Positions 590 to 44,367 of a stretch of DNA of 64,000 nt are shown in pieces. Each line of letters opens with the position of its first letter. Positions within the stretch are counted from its first letter, which is position 1. The translations under genes and the position numbers were made by a program. Source of the DNA: Paralichthys olivaceus (taxonomy: Eukaryota > Chordata > Actinopteri > Pleuronectiformes > Paralichthyidae); assembly GCF_024713975.1 (NCBI RefSeq), contig NC_091113.1:9002501-9066500 (forward strand), in the 5' to 3' direction. The notes beneath the pieces were generated by a model that made no database searches, was not told the origin of the DNA, and saw only the letters and a list, made by a program, of their open reading frames with translations.

Positions 590-6566
<5,977 letters not shown>

Positions 6567-8669: not shown

Positions 8670-9958
8670 ATGACGGCCGACAAGGAGAAGAGAAGGTAAA
8701 AGCTGCGTGTGCACAGATATTTTTTAAAATCATCTTCACGATGCATTTGTGTGTTTTTGAAAATATGTTCATGAACATGTTTAATTGACCTGTTACTGGT
8801 TTGGTCTGTGACTGATGTGGTGAGGTCAAAGATGGTGTAACATTGCATATAATTGGATTTGAACGTTGACCACAGTGCGGTGCTTGTCTCCCCAATTAGT
8901 TCACCTTTAGTGGAAGAACTTCTCAAATCCTTATAGATTAAACAATTAAAACACCTTAATGAAAAAAGTAAAACTCAACATAAAAATCTTAGAATTAAGT
9001 AAAAACTATCAGCAGTGTAAAGTTTTTTAAAGCATGACAATAACTTTAACAGGAAGTTTCCTAACTGAAGCATAATATGCTTCCCTTTATGTTGAGAAAT
9101 TCTCAAAAGGTCAGTATGTCATTAAACTGAAATAAGATTCATCCATGTTCCTGCAAAATTTAGATTTTGGAGATATACCTGAGAAACAAAATGTTGTAAA
9201 AACAGTACCTTCATTCAGTCATCAAGGAAACACATTTAGTTTACCGCCATTTCTCCAGTTCTTCACTGGAAGGTCATTCAATGATTTTATAATTAATATA
9301 ATATAATAAAAGTACATTTAGTATTTTTTTGTTGTGCTCTATGCAATTAAAGGTTAATTCATAATTCTAACTGGGATCATAATAATTCATTAAGCAGCCT
9401 GTAACATGTAGTGATTTTATTGTAGCTCACTTAATTTTTATTTTTAATGTAAAGCACCTTGCAACTGTATTTTGAAAGTTGCTATTTAGATATAGTTTAT
9501 TATTATTGTTATTATTATTACTATTATTGCTGTTCTTGTGCAGGGCGATCAGCCGTGAGGCAGCCAGAAAGAGACGTCAAGTGGAGTCTGAAGTGTTTGT
9601 AGATTTATCTCGGCTGCTGCCTCTCAAACCCTCCGTCCGAGCCAACCTGGACAAGCCCTCTGTCATCCGCCTCACCCTCAGCTACATACGCATGCACGCA
9701 CTGCTCAAAGGTAACACAAGGCATCTCTGACATTTAACATTTAATCCCAATACCAACCAAAAACTATTGTGCTTTTTATAATACATACAAAATGTTTAGC
9801 AAATAAACAAAATAACATTCTGAATATCTTCTTGAGTAACATTGCTTCTATGCAGAACTTCTGCTTTGGATAAACCAGACATTTTCCACTGAATGAATAA
9901 AATTAGGTTGTTGATGTAAACTGTCTGTAGATGTGTAAAATGTGTCATAACACCTGGA

Positions 9959-9996
<38 letters not shown>

Positions 9997-10552
9997 ACCC
10001 CCACCACATCCTTTGTTCACGGTTCCCATAAAATGAACACATTTTCACTGCAAAATCATTAGAAACCCTCCATTTCTTTTATCTTCTGACCCTGACCCTC
10101 AGTGAATGCTGCAACAGAGACCAGTCACAGTGTAAAATATGGAGACATGTTGGAAGGTGGAGAGAAATGGCAAATGTGTGATGGAGGACGAGACGATGGG
10201 GAGAAAGAGACGGAGGAAGCCGAGGCCTTGGGGGAGTCACATCTGTATCTGAGCACCCTGGAGGGATTTCTGATGGTTTTATCCATTGAGGGAGACATGG
10301 TCTACCTGTCTGACAATGTCAGCACATACATGGGCTTGACACAGGTATACACACACACACACACACACACACACCTATAATAACATTTATATGTATTTCT
10401 TATGTTTTTCTGGTTTACATTTAGGAATCAGGATTTAAAGATTAACGTGTACTTCATGTTTTCTGACAGACTGAGTTGATGGGACACAATATTTTTGACT
10501 TTACTCACCCCGCTGACCACAAAGAAATCCAAGATAATCTACAGCTGATGTC

Positions 10553-10592
<40 letters not shown>

Positions 10593-12550
10593 GTGTGTGT
10601 GATAAAATTGTAATACCTCTGTAAATTTGCCTGTTTTTTAGAGGGACTTTGGTGTGGTTCCACGGAGGCCTTTGTCCTTAGGATAAAAAGCACTCTGACC
10701 CACAGAGGAAGAAGCAGCAACCTCAAATCAGCGACATGGAAGGTTGGTGAGAAACTGCAACAAAAAGCTCTCGCTTTATTTCCCTCTTCCTGAGACTTAT
10801 AACAAATCGTATCTGATGGTGTTTATCGTCTAATCCCTGAATAGAACTGTGTGGTTCTTATAGGTTCTGAACTGTAAGGGTCGAGTGATGGTGTGTTCAG
10901 GTCCCTCCACAGGGTCCTCTCTTCTGCTCACCTGCCAACCTCTGCCCCTGTCACACACACTCCTCAGCACAAACACCTTCACCAGCCAGCACAGCATGGA
11001 CATGAGGTTCACGTACTGTGACCAGAGGTGATTCACACAAATCTTTATAGATGGACACGTCTACACTATTTACAAGCATGTTAGTATTTATTTAAATGGG
11101 CAGTCTTTGCACTAAATTATTGCACAATACATTACATCGAACACTGGTGTAATAATATGTTAAAAGTAAGAAGGAGCTCTTGTGAGAGTGAGAGTCAAGT
11201 TGCATCGGAACACTGCATGACTTGTTTTACATATTATGCAATGAGAAGGAGGTGCGTTTCCATTTTGCAATGTCCCACATAATGAAATTATGAAGAAACA
11301 ATCTGCTCGTCACATTTTATTTTGCATCTGTGCTGCACTGATATTGTTTCTGTTGGTTTTACAGGCTAATGCAAACCTTAGCAGACTCTCCGGAGCTGAG
11401 AAAAAATATGCCACAGTTCTTGTGAATTACTAATAACTGATCACTACAAGTTACATACAGTATTAACTTATTACTGTAAGGATGCTGCAGAGAAAGAAAA
11501 TGTTTTATATACATTACAACCATATAAAACCTCATAAAACTCACAAAAGCTTCAAAGAGGTATAGAGTATTCCAAGTCTAGAAAAGAGGAAAAATATCAC
11601 ATATGTCAGACTGAATCCTGGGTAATAAATTATATTTCCATTTGATGTTTATGAGTTTTGAGGTGGAATTTTATTTCAGTAAACTGTAAACATCACTAAC
11701 CCTAACCCTAACCCTGGCACAAAGTGTAATTCAAACAAACACACATCATTCAGAACTAGGGCTGCTGCTTTGTTTCTCTTTCACCTTTCATATTTTTTAG
11801 TATTAGACCTACGACTGCTGTTAGATAAGTAAAAGAGACTAAGATTGAATCATTAGACTAGTTTATGAAAATTTAGTGGAATAGATTTATATTTGTTACA
11901 GCTTTGTGTTTTTGTGTTTGTGCAGAGTGACTTTGCTTTTAGGTTACAGTCCTGACGAGCTGCTCGGTCGTTCCATTTACGATATCTGTCACACACTGGA
12001 CACAGACTGTTTGACCAAGAATCATCTGAACTGTGAGGAGTGAAGCACACAAGCTAAAAAAAAACTGAAAAAAACACAAACACATTGCACATATGATTTG
12101 ACTTGTATCTCTGTCTCTCTGCAGTGTGTTTGAAGAGTCAGTCAGTCAGCGGTCAGTATAGGATGCTGGTGAGAGGTGGAGGTTACATGTGGGTGGAGAG
12201 TCACAGCGCTGTCATCCCCAGTGGCCCAGCCTCCAAGTCCAGACTCAGCTCACACCAGCCGCTCTGCATCCTCTGTGTTACCTACACCCTCAGGTAAGTG
12301 TGTGTACACTAGTTTGTTTCCTCTTTAGGACCTACTCCAATGTAAATACTTATAATGTCAGGACTGGTGTCCTAATAGGGATAAGGGTCCGGTCCTAATG
12401 AGGCAAAACATAATTTCTGAGGTCCTGGTTAAGGTCAGGGGTAAGATGTGAATTGTGATTTCTCTTGTGTCTTGCAGTGGAGTGGAGGAACCGTCCCTGC
12501 AGCTCTCTTTGGACCAGACTATCCACAGATCTCAGCTGAAAATGTATTAA
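8670..12550 (+). CDS. epas1: HIF-alpha-type bHLH-PAS protein, epas1-like, truncated after PAS-B (377 residues)
   Basis: Member of the hypoxia-inducible factor alpha family, whose partners are ARNT-type proteins. Coding exons: 8670-8695, 9544-9710, 10103-10344, 10470-10554, 10642-10742, 10864-11027, 11926-12032, 12125-12293, 12478-12550; all joins keep frame and all introns are GT-AG. The start MTADKEK is that of HIF-2alpha, and the upstream neighbour prkce is also the human neighbour of EPAS1. bHLH lies at about residues 8-62 ([24 protein letters not shown]), followed by an acidic linker, PAS-A from about 100 ([41 protein letters not shown]) and PAS-B from about 255 ([41 protein letters not shown]). 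It then ends in VTYTLSG...[14 protein letters not shown] and a TAA. Full HIF alphas run to about 800-870 residues with the LxxLAP oxygen-degradation motifs and C-terminal activation domain; none of that is present. Intact frame over nine exons argues for a functional gene. hif1al-type paralogy is a less likely alternative. Confidence 0.86.
9959..9994. repeat. (CA)n microsatellite in epas1-like intron 2
   Basis: About 34 bases of CA repeats between exons 2 and 3. Confidence 0.95.
10347..10374. repeat. (AC)n microsatellite at the start of epas1-like intron 3
   Basis: The donor GTATAC at 10345 runs straight into AC repeats. Confidence 0.93.
10555..10600. repeat. (GT)n microsatellite that contains the intron 4 splice donor
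   Basis: Exon 4 ends TCAG at 10554 and the intron opens GTGTGTGTGT for about 46 bases, with one interruption. The whole intron is only 87 bases. Confidence 0.93.
11696..11715. repeat. Short interstitial telomere-type repeat (CCCTAA)n
   Basis: Just over three perfect units of CCCTAA lie in intron 6 of the epas1-like gene. The run is too short to indicate a chromosome end. Confidence 0.85.
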
Positions 12551-12849
12551 AAGTCATCCTGGCAACAATCGCCTCTACTTCCTTTTGTGAAATGATTTCA
12601 ATCAAGCTAACTTTGATCGAATATAAAACTTTCACAATCTGAGCTGTTGATTTCCACAAGACGCTTAAACCAAACCTGAGGTACAAATTACTTATTCGAG
12701 GTGGTTTGTAGTTTAGTATTGCTGTGGATAACATTTACCAAAAGCTGTCTGTTTTTTTTACTTCTGCCAAACTGATTTGCATAGGCATTGCAGAGACAGG
12801 GCTTCTGTCTTTCACAAAGAGAAAGTTAAAGTTAAAAGTGCAGCCTTTG

Positions 12850-12855
12850 ATTAAA
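12850..12855 (+). terminator. Candidate polyadenylation signal ATTAAA for the epas1-like gene
   Basis: The variant signal ATTAAA lies 300 bases after the stop codon. No AATAAA occurs between the stop and this point. Use is inferred only. Confidence 0.35.
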
Positions 12856-13140
12856 GTGCATGGAGTGAGAGCCGAAACAGGCAGTTTGACTTTTTACTGA
12901 CCGCTCTGGGCCTGACCATACTTCCTTTGAGGTTTCCTCCTGGGCCACCTGACACTGGGGTGACATCTGACTGTGAGACACAGACAAGCACACACTGATA
13001 TAGTATTATAGAGGGATATGCATTTTGCTGATGGTGAGATGTAAGCAGACACAAGTCAAAGCCACAACTTCCTGATTAGACGTTAAAGAGGAAAGTTCTC
13101 GTGGGAACTGTTTCAACTTTTTACCTTTTGGCCTCTGAAT

Positions 13141-13209
13141 GCACGCACACACACGCACACACACGCACGCACACGCGCGCGCACACACACACACAAACAC
13201 ACACACACA
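13141..13209. repeat. CA/CG-rich simple repeat
   Basis: CACG, CACA and CGCG units alternate over about 70 bases. This alternating purine-pyrimidine run could adopt left-handed DNA. Confidence 0.9.
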
Positions 13210-13867
13210 TACGTAAGCACAAACACAAACTTTGAAACTAAATTAAAAGCAATCTGAAAATTTCAAATGCATTACAACGATAATGATGAATGACAAAAGA
13301 AGTCATAACAACTCTATATATATGTATATACTAACATACTTTACAACGACAGAGTTAAACCAACTTAAACTGTGCCTGTGTTTAATAATCTAACTACATT
13401 GATAGGAACATAAATTATATATGTGCATTAAATAATGCAGTCAATTCTATTATCTTACATAAATGTGCTTTAATGATAGTTTGTGTGTAAGGATTTTTGG
13501 ATTAATCTCACCATCGCATTGATGCAGACAGGTTTACAGCATGCAGAGAAAAGGACTTGCTCCATCTAGTGTTGAACTGTTGTCAGTGAAACATAGCGGC
13601 CATGTTCCTCCAGTCAGTTTTGCTAAGAGGCAAATCAGTGATTAGAACTGATTAGTAGAACAAAGGTTTAAAGAAGTGAAAATCAATATAATCCAACAAA
13701 TTTCTGGTAAAATCTGCAGTAAAATAAAACATTTGCATAGGTAAAGTTTAAAGTAAAGTTTACATCCATGTGGTTATTATTACAATAATCTAACCTGATC
13801 AGAGACGTGATCCTAGTTATAACATGTCAATCCAGGATATTAAATATGTCTTACTAGACGATAGAAC

Positions 13868-13970
13868 CTGTCCAGGGTGTAACCTTCCTCCTGTTGGGAT
13901 TAGGCCTTGCCTCCGCTGCAACCCTTAAAGGATAAGTATTAGATAATAGATGAATGGACGATAGGGTTCT
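13868..13970. repeat. Interspersed repeat fragment (CCAGGGTGTAACCTTCC family)
   Basis: The order of phrases (CCTGTCCAGGGTGTAACC, TTGGGATTAGGC, AAGGATAAGTATTAGATAAT, GATGAATGGA) is that of a very common degenerate fish repeat tail. It is diverged here. The class was not determined. Confidence 0.6.
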
Positions 13971-15304
13971 GGATCTTAAAGGTTAACTTAATCAGACAGA
14001 TTAGCAGATGTATATTTGTTTCTATATGATCAAAAAGCAATCGTCAAGTCTTTCTAGATTTAAATAGGCCCAATGGTCTGAGTTAGGTTTATGGGTTGAT
14101 TTTACAATTTAATCTTTAATAACCCTGAGTCTATTCTTTAAGCTTGAATCTCTACTGATCATTTGCTTTTAATAATGTGAACTCGCTGCTCTGTTGAAAG
14201 GGAATAAAAGATGCTTGTTAACAGTAATCGTTTCATCACAGCTGATTTTGTGTCTGTTCTTAGTGAAGCAAAGTAACACAAGTTTGGCCAAAAGGATAAA
14301 ACAAACACTTATGAAACTGTTCTTCCCTGCGATCAAAGTTCCTCTTCATTAACTCAGCTCTAGGAAAGATTTTTCATCCTGTTGGATTATTTTTCCAAAC
14401 TGAATCTTTTTCAAGGTGACCCTGGCGTGGTTGTGTTGTTGAACTAATGGGGGTCACTGAGTTGTTTCAGAAGCCAAATCACTCCAGTATGACCCAGTAT
14501 GAGACGGGTGGAGGAGGTCATGGTGGTGTGTTTTGTCTTTTCTTTCAATTTCATTCTAACTATCAGCTGCCCAAAATATTTCACAACCTTCACACACAGA
14601 CAGGACAACAGTCTGTTCCTCCAAGAGTATTTCCAGTGAAAGCAACATGTGACCTAACTCATAAGGGCCGTGCTGACTCCCATGTTCCCTCTTCTGTTCA
14701 CTCCTCTCCTCCCCCAGTCACACCCCTATGGTTGGGTGGGTGTTGTCAGGCTACGAGCCAATGACATGTCAGCTCTCACCCATTGAAACACAAACATGAT
14801 AAATGTTGAGTGTGTGTGGCAGCGTTAAAGACAGTAAAACACAGAGGGGTGGTGAATGTGCAAATGATGTAATTAAAGATAAACGTGCAGGAAAACACTG
14901 GTGGGCAATAAAATGAGTCAAAGTCTAATGAAATGCTCCGTGTATTTTAATTTAATTATTAATGCAGCCATTGTTTTATTGTGGAATTAATAGAAGGTTG
15001 TGTCTGGATAAAGAGTGGGTGGAAAAAGCAGAGCTGGTGGAAATTGACCTGTGGTGCAGAGTTCGAAGTCCTTTGACTGATGTTTGACATGACAAGAGAA
15101 AACAGGTTGGGTCCTTGTACAAACAGGCACATGCAAGAACCAGCCTTAAGAACTTTGTATGGAATTTTTGTATAACTATAGAGAAAGTGTATTTATAGCA
15201 CTGCGACAATTCAAATATAGGCTCTATACATATATGAGATTAGAAATTAAAGTTTGGGAAAATGAAATAGAATAAAATGAGGTAAGTAAGAATGTTTTAT
15301 ACAT

Positions 15305-15575
15305 CAGTATGAATTTATATCTATTTAGTGCTTTTCCAGGCTTATTGACCACTTGAAGTGCTTTATAGTACAAGTCGCAGTCACACATTTACACACACAC
15401 ATCCCTAGAATGCTTCGTTACCCAGCTTTTTCTATAACACACGGTCAGTACAGCCGTCAATTTTAGATTCAGTATCTTGCCCAAGGACACTTGTGGAATG
15501 CAGACTGGAGGTGCACCGTCAACCCTTAACCTAGTGTATGACCCTCTCTACTTCCTGAGCCACAGCCGCTCAGGC
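15305..15575. repeat. Interspersed repeat, copy 1 (ACTTGAAGTGCTTTATAGTAC family)
   Basis: Recognised from the ordered phrases: 'gcttttccag', 'ccacttgaagtgctttatag', 'cacatttacacacacac', 'cccaaggacacttgtgg', 'gcagactggaggtgcac' and 'cctgagccacagccgctcag'. This arrangement is typical of a dispersed teleost element. Diverged copies also lie at 15605-15700 and 29520-29610. Confidence 0.65.
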
Positions 15576-15604
15576 ACATAAAGGAGTAGGAGAGAAGGGT
15601 AAAT

Positions 15605-15700
15605 GTTTTGTATCACTCAAAGCGCTTTACAGTACAGTTTCTTCCATTAACACATTCACACATACATTCATACAGTGCATCATGCTCGGATCAAAACTCA
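15605..15700. repeat. Interspersed repeat, copy 2, partial
   Basis: Contains CACTCAAAGCGCTTTACAGT and then CACATTCACACATACATTCA, the 5' phrases of the family at 15305-15575. It sits about 30 bases after that copy, in the same orientation. Confidence 0.6.
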
Positions 15701-18700
15701 GGCTGAATGTCTGTATACTTTTTATTCTCAGCTGGTGACACAGCCAAGCACTGCAATGCAAATTTCCGTTTTTATGTACAGACAATCTCTGCATTTCTTT
15801 TGCATGATGTTTTTGTGCAGCCACCTTCTTCACTATGGCTGGTATCTGTTGTGCTCAGGATACATTTGTGAGGTGTGACAGGGGCCTCAGTTGTATATAA
15901 AGCTTCAGATTATCTTTACCACTGTTCGTTATCTCCCAAAAAGTACAGAACAAGCATGCACAATAATGTACAGATATTATATCTTTTCTCTCTTATTGCA
16001 TTAGAACCACTGAGACATTGCTTTGTTCCTGTTGTGATGGGTAACATGGTTTCTATTGATTATTATCCCCTGACATCAGAGAGACCATACAGGATGTTCA
16101 AAACACACAGCTTTACAATCCGACCATGTTAACCTGCACCAGGCCTGGGTGTACTTACATTTCATTTACACACTGTGCATGTTAAAATCACACCTCAATG
16201 AGCCATAACTCACTTTTCACATTGTGCAATCAAGTGTTTGTACCACTGTTTAAGCATAGAGTATAAATGTGTATTTGTACCTGGATCTAATCTTATCTCC
16301 TGTGCAGAGTCCATGGGTGTAAGCCCAGGTCAGGGCCTTCATTCAGTGGAGCTCAGCAATAATAGCCCCTCTCTCTGTGCCATGCAGAAGGGTTGACAAA
16401 GTTTGCATTAACTGTATGTGCGAAGTAATGTTAGCATGCCATGAATTAAGTTTTACTTAAGAGCAATTTCTTGCTTTAGTGCCTCAGCTGTGGACAGAGT
16501 GTGGAAGCAAATGCACAGACACAAACATGTAACCAGCACAAAAATGGGCATTTTTTGTTAATAGTGTTTCGCAGGCTCATGATCAAGAGTTAAATTGTAT
16601 AATCAGATTTGTAAAATTGCTCCCACATGTTGGCAAGTGGATGGAAGCAGAGATTTACATCATTTATTTATTGATGCTACAGTGTCTTGGCTCTTGTGGA
16701 AAACACTGTACTGCATGCAATGGGTGCAAAGTATAAAAACAGCTCTGCTGATTGGCTGATCAGTAGGTTGTACCCATGATACATTGCCCCTACTCTAAAT
16801 CAAGAGGCCTCTTATAAATATTATCTCAAACAAGCTGGTAGTGCAGTCGCCACAATCTCTTACACACACACGTCTGCCTTGTTCCAGCTGTCTCTGAAAT
16901 GCTCTCCAGCAACACCCCATTCATACACATGCACACCATGTGTGACCTGCTGCCCTGGATTATGCTCTCTCACTTGGTCACACATTTAGACAGTACACAA
17001 AAATAACTAAAAAGCACTGAGAACACTATGCTGCTTAAGGCCGTGGATTTAAGACTAAGCTCAGAAAGGAGGAAATCCAGTTCAACCACTGATGTGAAGA
17101 ATTGGCTCAAGTTTAAAGTTGATGTTGGAGATCATGATGTTGGCAATATCACTATCTAAATGTAAATAATTGTAATTGTATTTATGGTCAAAATGCTTTT
17201 CATGCTTAAAGTTTGCTAGTGGGTGGGTGTAGGGATTGAAATGTGTCTGACTTTCAGTCAGTCCACCACTGTGATCTGTGACTGAAACATTGGAACATTT
17301 TGTGCAGACATTCATGGTTCTCAGAGGTTGTGTATCACCAACTTTGGTGATCTTCTGACTTTTCCCATAGTCATACTTTTCACTTAAAATATCTTAACAT
17401 TTCAATTAGTCCAACACTTTGGACCAAATACCTGCAGAACGTATGACATTCTATTCAACCTCAGCTTTAACTTTGTTCCTTACCTAAATATTATCATGCT
17501 GACACACTAAATGGTAAATGTGGTATCTGCACATTATCAACATAGGATTGTTGCCTTGGAAAGTTTTTTTCACTGGCAGCTGTTAATTATTATTTCCGAT
17601 TTCAGCCACAAACAATCACAAACATCTCCAGATCAACTACAACCATTAATCATAGTTGCTCATGAGGGTGGTTGATCCCGCAAACACAGCAGACCTTTTC
17701 ATCATCTCTCACGTCCCTCGCTCTCTTCCTTCACTTCTGTGTCACTCACTCAACTGATCAGGGAAGTGCTGATGACAGCAGGACTTGCTGAAATTGTTCC
17801 ATAAAGCCACAAAGTACAAAACTCTACCACTGTGGTTGATGTACAAAGGCTAATGAATGACCAGGCTGATGCACTTCCTTTCTACCTGCTCATGTTCCCG
17901 TAAACGTAATAATCTAGAATGGCACAGTAGAAAGTCCAACAATCCCCTTAAATTCCACATCTAACCCATCATGTCTGTTTGCACATAATATAATTTCCGT
18001 GTGAGCTTCAGTAATTCTACCTTAATTTTCTTACTTGTTGAAATTAAAACGACAAGTGAACTGTGCTGCCCTCATTATACAAAGAGGAGTTTTTGTTGTT
18101 TCAATGGGGTGAACACATCTGTAGGAAAACTTGTAAAGTGCAGTTTACAAATGCAGTTCAATAATTACCTTCATGAAGGTACAATCTGTTTACTGCACTC
18201 TTGTATTAGTATGCAGTAATCTTAAACCTGGGTCGTATCCAGGGTGACCCCCAAGTCTGAAGATGTCTCACACAGCATCCTAATTTATTTCCCTCACTTT
18301 GCACCACCCATTCCAACAGCACATCCACGAAAGGCTAGAATTGTTGTCACTCTCTATGTTACGTGTAGGTGTTCGCATCCTATTGGATTGTTAAGCCTAA
18401 AGTATGCATTCCTAAATCACGTTGTGTCCTTACATCTTGCCACTGGTGTAATATGCAAAAGAGTTTGGTGCCTCTCTGTAATGTAGAAGTCCATGAGCGT
18501 ACACTCTACAATGTAGCTAGTTGGCCCTTTATCTATAACCTGATCTCGAGTATTTCTTGGAGAGAAAGGAGTATGTGTGGAATGAATCAGGCACTATAAT
18601 GGTTTGCAGATGTAATGTGTGAGGATGGTCAAAAATTCCTTGAGGCACTTGGGGAGGGGGGGGCTAGCTAAAATGTGATTGGTTTTATTCTCTCATTTGT

Positions 18701-18809
18701 ATTTTTTATCCCAATCCTCCTATTACTTCCTGTCTTGCTTTCTCTCTTCATCACAACTTCTTTTTATTGTTTTCATTCTATTTCGTTTATGTTTTAATAT
18801 TTTTTAACC

Positions 18810-19111
18810 CAAACCCCCACGTGCACGCGCAGTCAATATATCACTGGCGACACCTCGGGAGCGCGCGCTGTCAGTTGCCTTGTCTCGCACAGGCGCGCGC
18901 ACGCGAAGGCCCTCCTCTCGCGCTGCCACGCTGGGCTCGTGCACCATTTTAAGGCACACACGCGCAGCGGGTCGCTCCCACTCGACCAGAGGACTGGACC
19001 CGGTCAGGAGTCGCTCTTTCTTCCCCCCTCTCTCCTGTCGTCACCCCCATTGTCCTGGTTGTTTTGCTGCCTTGTTTTTCTTTAGTTCTTCGCGGTTAGC
19101 TACCTCCAGTC
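18810..19111 (+). promoter_or_regulatory. glud1: GC/CpG-rich promoter and 5' UTR of glud1
   Basis: Base composition changes sharply from AT-rich to CpG-rich at about 18815 and stays so through exon 1, as in a CpG-island promoter. A CACGTG E-box lies at 18818-18823, with CACGC directly after it. No clear TATA box is seen. The transcription start was not placed. Confidence 0.6.
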
Positions 19112-31588
<12,477 letters not shown>

Positions 31589-35076: not shown

Positions 35077-41656
<6,580 letters not shown>

Positions 41657-44367
41657 CTTGGGTGACGAGACGGCTGGGCTCCCCTGCTCCAAACGGGCCT
41701 GGCTGGCTGACTGGTGCTTACAGTGGGTGTGCAGGAGGGGATGTCAGGAGTGCGTTGGTCTTCGTGAGTGAGTACGTGTGCGTGTGCCGGTGGCTCCTCC
41801 TCCCTTTGGTGCTGCACAACAGAGGGTTTGAGAGGACTGCACAGGAGGGCAACAGCACGCAGACTGAGAGAGAGAGGGTGGAGGAAACGACGGGTACGCA
41901 CGAGATGGAGAGAGGAGGTGGAGGAGGTGGAGGAGGAGGAGGAGGGATGGCCGGATGCTGCAGCATTTTCAAGTCATGCTGCAGCCCCGCCCCTCAGCCA
42001 TCCCTCCACTCTCATCCATCTTTCTCCTGATGATTCTCACTCAGCCTCAGTTACGCTGTTTGCATATTTTTTGATTGGCACGTTGCTCTGGACACACCTT
42101 TCTGGATGCTGAGCTTGTGAGAACTGTTACATAACCGTCAGAGCTTAAGCACTGGAGCTTTTTTTTTTTTTTTTCAAATCATATGGTTTTGACATGAAAT
42201 CTGTGATTGCACTTCGAACAGCTTGTCCAAAAGATGTGATTGCTGCAGCTAACCTTATATATGTTTGTGTATATTTTGCATAGGTATCAATTGTATTTAT
42301 TTATTCAATGCATTACTTTGTGTATGCATTATGCAGATTTTTGGATATAATATCAGTAAACTCCCTCTCTACTGCATCACACTGAGTTAAGAGAGACAAA
42401 GAAAGAAGCTGCTGCCATTTTTAGTGTTGTAAGAGAAGAGAAATTGCTTTGTCATCTCAACCTGAATGAGTCACAACCGCCCTCCTCTTCTTCCTCCTCC
42501 TCCTCCTCCTCATGGTCCCATTCCTGCAAAATATGCCGACTCAGCGGGACAGCAATCATGTTGATGCCTTTGATGGCCCCACATCTCCTTTTTTTTTTTT
42601 TATAAACAATGCTCTGTAAATAAAATGTGGAGAAATAACTCTAAAATATAATGTGCTGCTGTGTTATAATAGTCTTGGAACTCGTGTTTTTGGTGCCTGA
42701 CAAAATCAAAGTGCAGAGAGTAAAGGGATTTATTTGGAGCACACTGAACCGTGCTGTTGCAGGGAGGATGTCTGGTCTTTGGGGTGGGTAAGTGTGCAGA
42801 AACCTACTGCCCTCTCCCGGTCACAAGAAATGTGACATCATGACGCAGCATTGTGGCTGCACGGCTGGGTTCCTTATGACACAAACGATAAATCTGATTG
42901 ATCGTTTATCTAAAAACAGCCTTTTTAATCTTTTTGGATGTCAAGTCTAAGAGATTGCAATTGCAAGTATTTGAACAACCCTCAAAATGTGACTGCATTT
43001 GAATGCTCTTCATTTATAATTATTGTCCTGTCATTGCTTTAAGTGTAGTTTTCAAGGGGGCAGGAGTCAAGGATGTGAAATACCATGAAAGTGAAATCTT
43101 CGTTCAGTCTCATATCCTCGTTTTATGACTTAAATCAATACTAATCCATATATTTATATTAACTGGGCCAGGTGTGCGTGTACAGAGTGAAAACTGGGGC
43201 TAGTTGTGGCAAACCCTTGCAGAATTTTCCATTGACTCTGCAGTTTCCATCTCTTTTACAGAGCATCTCTCTGCTCATTGATTTGATATTTGGTCCCAAT
43301 ACTCTCCTCATTCCTGGCTGCAGCAGGCAACTGTAGAGGCTAACCTACTTAAAGCTAACCAAAGTCAAACAGCTAAATAAATGATATTTCTCTCAGGAGT
43401 TGGTGGAGAACAAAAACAGAACTAAAAGATTTGTGATGTTTTTATGTTTGAAAGTGCAAAATATAATAGTTTTGTGGATTTTGGGTTTGATGTCGTGAGA
43501 ATGAATGAAACCCCCAGAATAAGAATTTCTATCTATCGTCATACATTCATTAAGTGAAAACAAACTTTGAGAATTTAACGCCAATGCCGTTTGAGTCTTT
43601 TTCAGTACTGCCACCATAACTGTGTCACTGCCACCAGCCAATGTACACTGACATTATCCAGGTAAAAGCAATTAGGTGCATTGTCAAAACACAAAATTAT
43701 ACCATGTTTCCAGAGTGACACCATCATTCCAGTTGTGGGGTTGTAACAGTTCACTCAGCTGTATAGTTTTAAGAAAAAATTTATTCACATTGATATCAGT
43801 ACATTTTTTGAGTGCACGTTTTTTACATACTGTATTTTGTGCATATAGATAAACGTCTATGTGTGTGTTCATCCTGTATTCGTGGCTTCTCAACAAGCAT
43901 GCTGATAAGTGTTAAAACTCACAAGCAGTTCATGTACTGGGGGCGTAAAAGAAACATCATCAGTTCTGCGTGTTCACTTGAATACTTGTTATTTTTTGTA
44001 CAATTTCCGTGTCATGTAAGAGAGACAGAACCCAAAACAAACAAAGAAAATAAAAACCCAAATGCAAGATCAGGTCTTAGCAGCGGACAGATACATTTGA
44101 CAGGTAATACTGGGCTTATGAACACATAGCATTCTCACACTAACAGTTAGTATCTCACATTCTACTAATCTGGTCTACAATACACTATATCACATCGCTG
44201 AGGAGTCTCCTCCTCCTCCTCCTCCTCCTGCTTCTTTTTTCCCTCTGTAATTTATCCCCTCTTCCTGTTAACTCCTGTGCTGTTGTCCATGTCCTCCTTT
44301 ACATGTCCTCCTCCCCTCTGTCTCTCTCTCTTTCTCTTTTTCTCTCTCTTTTCTCTCCTGCACCTCT
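41657..44367. other. sncg upstream region and ldb3 3' flank, no coding exon seen
   Basis: GGA-rich purine run at about 41915-41945, poly-T at 42161-42174 and 42590-42600, otherwise AT-rich. On the - strand I searched for LIM-domain exons of ldb3 (paired CxxC...HxxC signatures) and found none. A TTTATT (AATAAA on the - strand) at 43780-43785 is one candidate ldb3 polyadenylation signal. Confidence 0.55.

Follow-up and report, generated by a model that had tools for sequence, protein, structure and literature searches.

Is the HIF-alpha gene of Paralichthys olivaceus that ends just after its second PAS domain shortened in the genome itself, from which HIF alpha does it derive, and what could a protein reduced to the bHLH-PAS half still do? 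The gene lies on the forward strand of a window of 64,000 nucleotides (the whole stretch of DNA analysed, C21:9002501-9066500), and comparable genes are known from other fishes. The part of Townley et al. 2022 (PMC9789988) compared here describes a truncated HIF2Ab across Salmoniformes, Esociformes and Neoteleostei, which keeps the N-terminal third to half of HIF2A, corresponds to zebrafish epas1a on chromosome 12, is not placed reliably by sequence trees, and has transcripts that PhyloFish lacks and that other studies find at very low levels; the same text repeats the term 'relic' of Rytkonen et al. 2013 and already proposes negative regulation akin to that of HIF3A splice variants. Passages of the later papers PMC11370800 and PMC10805151 restate the truncation. 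Both the gene and its IPAS-like interpretation are already in print and neither is new; what is new here is the branch-specific selection result and the negative search for C-terminal exons in one more genome. Among the papers listed for the gene and its function, judged by titles and abstract openings, none puts the truncated protein to an experimental test.

Gene model and domain content

Nine exons between 8670 and 12550 (forward strand) splice into an open reading frame of 377 residues whose sole stop is the TAA at 12548-12550, and all eight introns are of the GT-AG type once the junction of exons 2 and 3 is placed at 9710/10103. Exon 1 (8670-8695) supplies the ATG and the first 8-9 codons, with the donor AAG/GTAAAA; exon 2 (9544-9710) encodes the basic region and the helix-loop-helix, its end at 9709 or 9710 giving an identical protein and 9710 the GT-AG intron. 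Exon 3 (10103-10344) carries a linker and then the first part of PAS-A, exons 4 (10470-10554) and 5 (10642-10742) encode PAS-A, and exon 6 (10864-11027) holds its end, a linker and the start of PAS-B. Exons 7 (11926-12032) and 8 (12125-12293) encode PAS-B, and exon 9 (12478-12550) encodes SLDQT, a nine-residue tail (IHRSQLKMY) and the TAA. The GC content is 0.61 at third codon positions versus 0.34 in the introns.

An independent gene model, obtained by splice-aware alignment of the solved-structure EPAS1 sequence to the raw DNA, recovers the same nine exons. It agrees on exons 6, 7 and 8. Exons 1 and 3 begin elsewhere in it, intron 4 is bounded differently at either end (exon 4 ending at 10562, exon 5 starting at 10644), and exon 9 ends at another point, the one where the EPAS1 reference itself stops. 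For exon 3 the alignment opens at 10208, after an AG at 10207, which removes 35 residues in frame and gives a protein of 342 residues; the predicted start at 10103 is preferred, because the AG at 10102 is preceded by a pyrimidine-rich tract and that at 10207 by purine-rich sequence. The first 35 codons of exon 3 (10103-10207), coding only with the acceptor at 10102, are rich in glycine and acidic residues and have no counterpart in the paralog models. Introns 3 and 4 start in CA/GT dinucleotide repeats (10345-10375 and 10555-10600), and with the donor of intron 4 inside the GT repeat a change in repeat length might shift splicing; intron 6 includes three telomere-like TAACCC units (11697-11714). 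The spliced frame, the GT-AG introns and the second model agree with what a sequence-only reading of this DNA had claimed, namely that nine exons keep frame with intact splice sites and that the protein ends at 377 residues just past SLDQT, where nine more residues precede the stop. A pseudogene with frame breaks is ruled out, no break occurring across the nine exons.

Pfam profiles found in the 377-residue protein are bHLH_HIF1A (1.3e-13), PAS_11 (2.2e-22) and PAS_3 (1.3e-20), and its top relatives of solved structure are EPAS1 (E 2.6e-91), HIF-1alpha and HIF-3alpha; with a match of that strength the resemblance to HIF alphas is not due to chance. Like HIF-2alpha (EPAS1), the protein has bHLH, PAS-A and PAS-B domains; unlike HIF-2alpha, it has no detected ODD, N-TAD or C-TAD. 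The basic region reads SREAARKRR here and SRDAARCRR in EPAS1 and in three paralogs on contigs C14, C12 and C11. PAS-B carries an insertion of seven residues relative to all five references, ahead of QPLCILCV in exon 8, and the linker ahead of PAS-A is longer than in the paralogs, provided that exon 3 starts at 10103 and relative to paralog models fitted to references that miss a few linker residues. Of 141 residues that do not vary among five other HIF alphas, 102 are kept and 39 lost; by region, within domain limits that we set ourselves, 26/36 are kept in the bHLH, 36/47 in PAS-A, 37/50 in PAS-B, 3/6 in the inter-PAS linker and 0/2 in a deleted stretch. Residues invariant in four HIF-1/HIF-2 sequences are kept at 121 of 186 positions, versus 141 of 186 in the C11 gene. 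One change, from A to P at residue 47, lies in what we take to be the helix-2 region, and together with the residue divergence it could have cost the protein its dimerisation.

Search for the activation half

Profile searches were made across the genome contigs (588 Mb, 25 contigs). PF11413, which covers the ODD and N-TAD, was above cut-off on C14, C12 and C11 in three of the four matches listed (five candidates scored), the fourth being a sub-threshold match at C14:13.48 Mb; for PF08778, the C-TAD profile, both listed matches were on C12 and C14 (nine candidates scored). Neither profile matched C21 among the matches listed. Eight tail peptides, cut by eye from open frames of the paralogs, were compared with 12478-19100: exon 9 itself scored 18.5 bits and nothing else exceeded 17.7 bits, against best scores in 60 mononucleotide shuffles that average 19.0 bits and peak at 27.3 bits. 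Where exons for the ODD and TADs are expected (12551-19100, forward strand), none was recognised by PF11413, PF08778 or the tail peptides.

In the C14 gene the frame of exon 9 continues as EQTESLFKPRHM... to a LAP motif, towards the ODD; by profile and tail-peptide searches, the LxxLAP hydroxylation motifs and the C-TAD of HIF-2alpha proper are absent here. The activation half thus appears to be gone from the locus, and not merely left unspliced. A full-length HIF alpha would have been overlooked if exon 8 or 9 spliced into ODD/TAD exons and so bypassed the stop, and a weak GT (AAAT/GTATTA, at 12544) does stand ahead of the TAA; with C21 devoid of PF11413 and PF08778 among the matches listed, and no tail exon recognisable up to 19100, such a transcript is highly improbable. 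The same evidence, with the stop of the reading frame, bears out the earlier proposal that the truncation of this bHLH-PAS-only HIF-2alpha gene is fixed in the genome.

Origin of the gene and its neighbours

Searching the genome with the protein returned 31 matching stretches: eight from the gene itself, five on C14 (22.54-22.56 Mb), five on C12 (about 14.49 Mb), three on C11 (about 1.94 Mb) and ten in other places, which lie outside the gene models made for C14, C12 and C11. By these models the C14 gene is a full-length HIF2A, with 79% identity to the EPAS1 reference, and the C12 gene is HIF1A, with 77% identity to the HIF-1alpha reference. The top solved-structure match of the C11 gene is HIF-1alpha, HIF-3alpha scoring slightly lower; from its missing C-TAD we call it HIF3A-like, and presume it to be of the HIF3A type. 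Over the shared part, the C21 gene has an identity of 48% with the C14 copy and of 50% with the EPAS1 reference.

Upstream in the window, open frames at 1811-5626 (forward strand) represent a protein kinase C (self-matches at 2485-2670 and 5318-5506; Pkinase 20.1 bits, below cut-off), presumably of the epsilon type by its sequence, which serves as a synteny anchor. Its closest genomic match is on C14, at 84% and 73% identity in two stretches that share the strand of the full HIF2A and lie 37 and 20 kb upstream of it, the order and orientation found in the window; HIF1A on C12 is adjoined in the equivalent position by a different PKC (77% and 62%). The presence of PKC beside both copies indicates that one PKC-HIF2A segment is present twice, on C21 and on C14, a pair as expected of the teleost genome duplication. 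Downstream lies a glutamate dehydrogenase gene (19229-29029, forward strand; three self-matches, two of three frames over the ELFV_dehydrog cut-offs), which we take to be GLUD; its C14 relative (92% and 82% in two stretches) is 1.8 Mb off and on the opposite side of HIF2A, so that it supports pairing at the level of contigs only. The PKC-HIF2A adjacency is kept on both duplicate segments, and GLUD stands apart on C14 (C14:22.54-24.40 Mb). Ten open frames of the window were run against Pfam; three matched (PKC below cut-off, GLUD twice) and seven had no match. Further downstream, at 40001-42000, the GC content is 0.52 versus about 0.37-0.39 on the flanks, and open frames of the two strands overlap there.

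Sequence alone does not place the gene. In a tree of six sequences (315 columns, no outgroup) it has the longest branch, 0.81, and its split with the HIF2 pair has a support of 70, in an unrooted tree of that size; five topologies were entered in an AU test, two of them identical, and none of the four different ones is rejected (p 0.118-0.876). The description 'HIF-2alpha-like' given by the sequence-only reading therefore stands by PKC synteny, which decides the HIF2A origin, sequence alone not sufficing for it. HIF1A and HIF3A identities were rejected, those being separate genes on C12 and C11, HIF1A with a PKC neighbour of its own. A HIF4A origin is improbable: it does not fit the PKC neighbour, and HIF4A is reported absent from Neoteleostei in the text of PMC9789988, with which the three further ODD-bearing HIF alphas found here agree (the sequence comparison included no HIF4A).

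As described in the available text of PMC9789988, the truncated HIF2Ab resembles the present gene in comprising only the bHLH-PAS N-terminal half of a HIF alpha, in being, by synteny, a duplicate of HIF2A, of which a full-length copy lies at another place in the genome (here on C14), and in its poor placement in sequence trees; no difference was found in the text compared. The gene is almost certainly a truncated HIF2A copy from the teleost duplication, the HIF2Ab of Townley et al. 2022 at the zebrafish epas1a locus.

Selection and possible function

A codon model (GY94-type, F3x4; four genes, 324 codons, one assumed tree) gave an omega of 0.134 on the C21 branch versus 0.017 in the background, values that are rough, since synonymous sites are saturated and the length of the C11 branch sits at its upper bound, so that their direction is what counts. 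An omega of 1 is rejected (LRT 17.5), and equal omega is rejected more weakly (joint LRT 7.3). When all other parameters are kept constant, the test against omega = 1 yields 17.4, a value reached by 0 of 200 neutral simulations (maximum 9.9); the fixed-parameter test against the background gives 37.2 (0/200 simulations), which overstates the difference because the background was held at its own optimum, the joint value of 7.3 being the fair one. The neutral dN/dS that would have marked a pseudogene, as the earlier reading had it, is accordingly not what the branch displays. Under assumed indel:substitution ratios of 0.05-0.15, neutral divergence of 1.4-2.4% breaks an unselected frame with 95% probability; the intact frame and the branch omega together make a functional protein under relaxed constraint more likely than a pseudogene. 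A pseudogene long dead fits these results poorly, and the gene is in all likelihood protein-coding and constrained.

A protein without an ODD should avoid decay driven by prolyl hydroxylation, and one without TADs should not activate. The C21 gene would yield a small nuclear bHLH-PAS protein that would escape prolyl hydroxylation and VHL, pair with ARNT and, given that the RxAARxRR basic region is kept, occupy hypoxia response elements without recruiting coactivators; the predicted outcome is a lower ceiling on HIF-1/HIF-2 output. The simplest reading, a passive competitor for ARNT or DNA, is one that we hold tentatively. The whole chain, with a truncated HIF2Ab making an oxygen-independent competitive HIF inhibitor, has not quite an even chance of being right; as the best explanation it draws on the gene model, the domains, the missing ODD and TADs, the synteny, the omega, the basic region and the wide euteleost reports. 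That such a gene-encoded, oxygen-independent inhibitor was truncated early in euteleosts and has been under purifying selection since is rather doubtful.

The closest functional parallels are IPAS and HIF-3alpha4, short mammalian HIF3A splice products that are likewise bHLH-PAS HIF alphas without a transactivation domain. IPAS, according to the passage of PMC7452874 used here, forms inactive complexes with HIF-1alpha and HIF-2alpha; a role as negative regulator is proposed for both proteins, and for the C21 gene we only infer inhibition. Unlike IPAS, this is a separate HIF2A-derived gene, shortened by a stop within an exon instead of by splicing; nor is it itself a HIF3A splice product, the HIF3A-type gene sitting on C11. 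The C21 protein may therefore work like IPAS, but is not IPAS itself.

Two observations count against a simple inhibitor, namely expression reported as very low and 39 of the 141 invariant residues lost: HIF2Ab transcripts as low as those cited in the text of PMC9789988 are difficult to reconcile with an inhibitor that acts by titration, unless it is induced or local, and both observations leave room for a relic or for another role. A near-silent copy heading towards a pseudogene, with constraint lost recently or lineage by lineage, would account for the relaxed constraint (0.134 against 0.017, joint LRT 7.3), the lost residues, and the missing or very low transcripts and the word 'relic' in that text; yet the frame and eight introns are intact, which at assumed rates caps neutral evolution at about 2% divergence, neutrality over the branch is rejected, and the truncated form in several orders, as reported in print, implies long retention, so that decay of this kind seems unlikely. 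Competition with HIFs may instead have been abandoned for another partner, another site or sensing through PAS-B, as the seven-residue PAS-B insertion, the longer linker (if exon 3 starts at 10103) and the relaxed but non-neutral evolution would allow; this we judge distinctly improbable, as the basic region and 102/141 invariant residues are HIF-alpha-like, the longer linker vanishes with the 10208 acceptor, and none of the present results points to another partner.

Either way, this is a known gene. As a slow relic, it would exemplify a transcription-factor duplicate decaying from its C-terminus; as a translated restraint on HIF, it would show in nature a duplicate that was retained minus its activation half. 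Should the competitive inhibitor hold true, a very large fish group would possess a dedicated HIF brake that mammals produce by splicing; given translation of the protein and a restraining effect on HIF, the set point of the hypoxia response would be hard-wired in these fishes.
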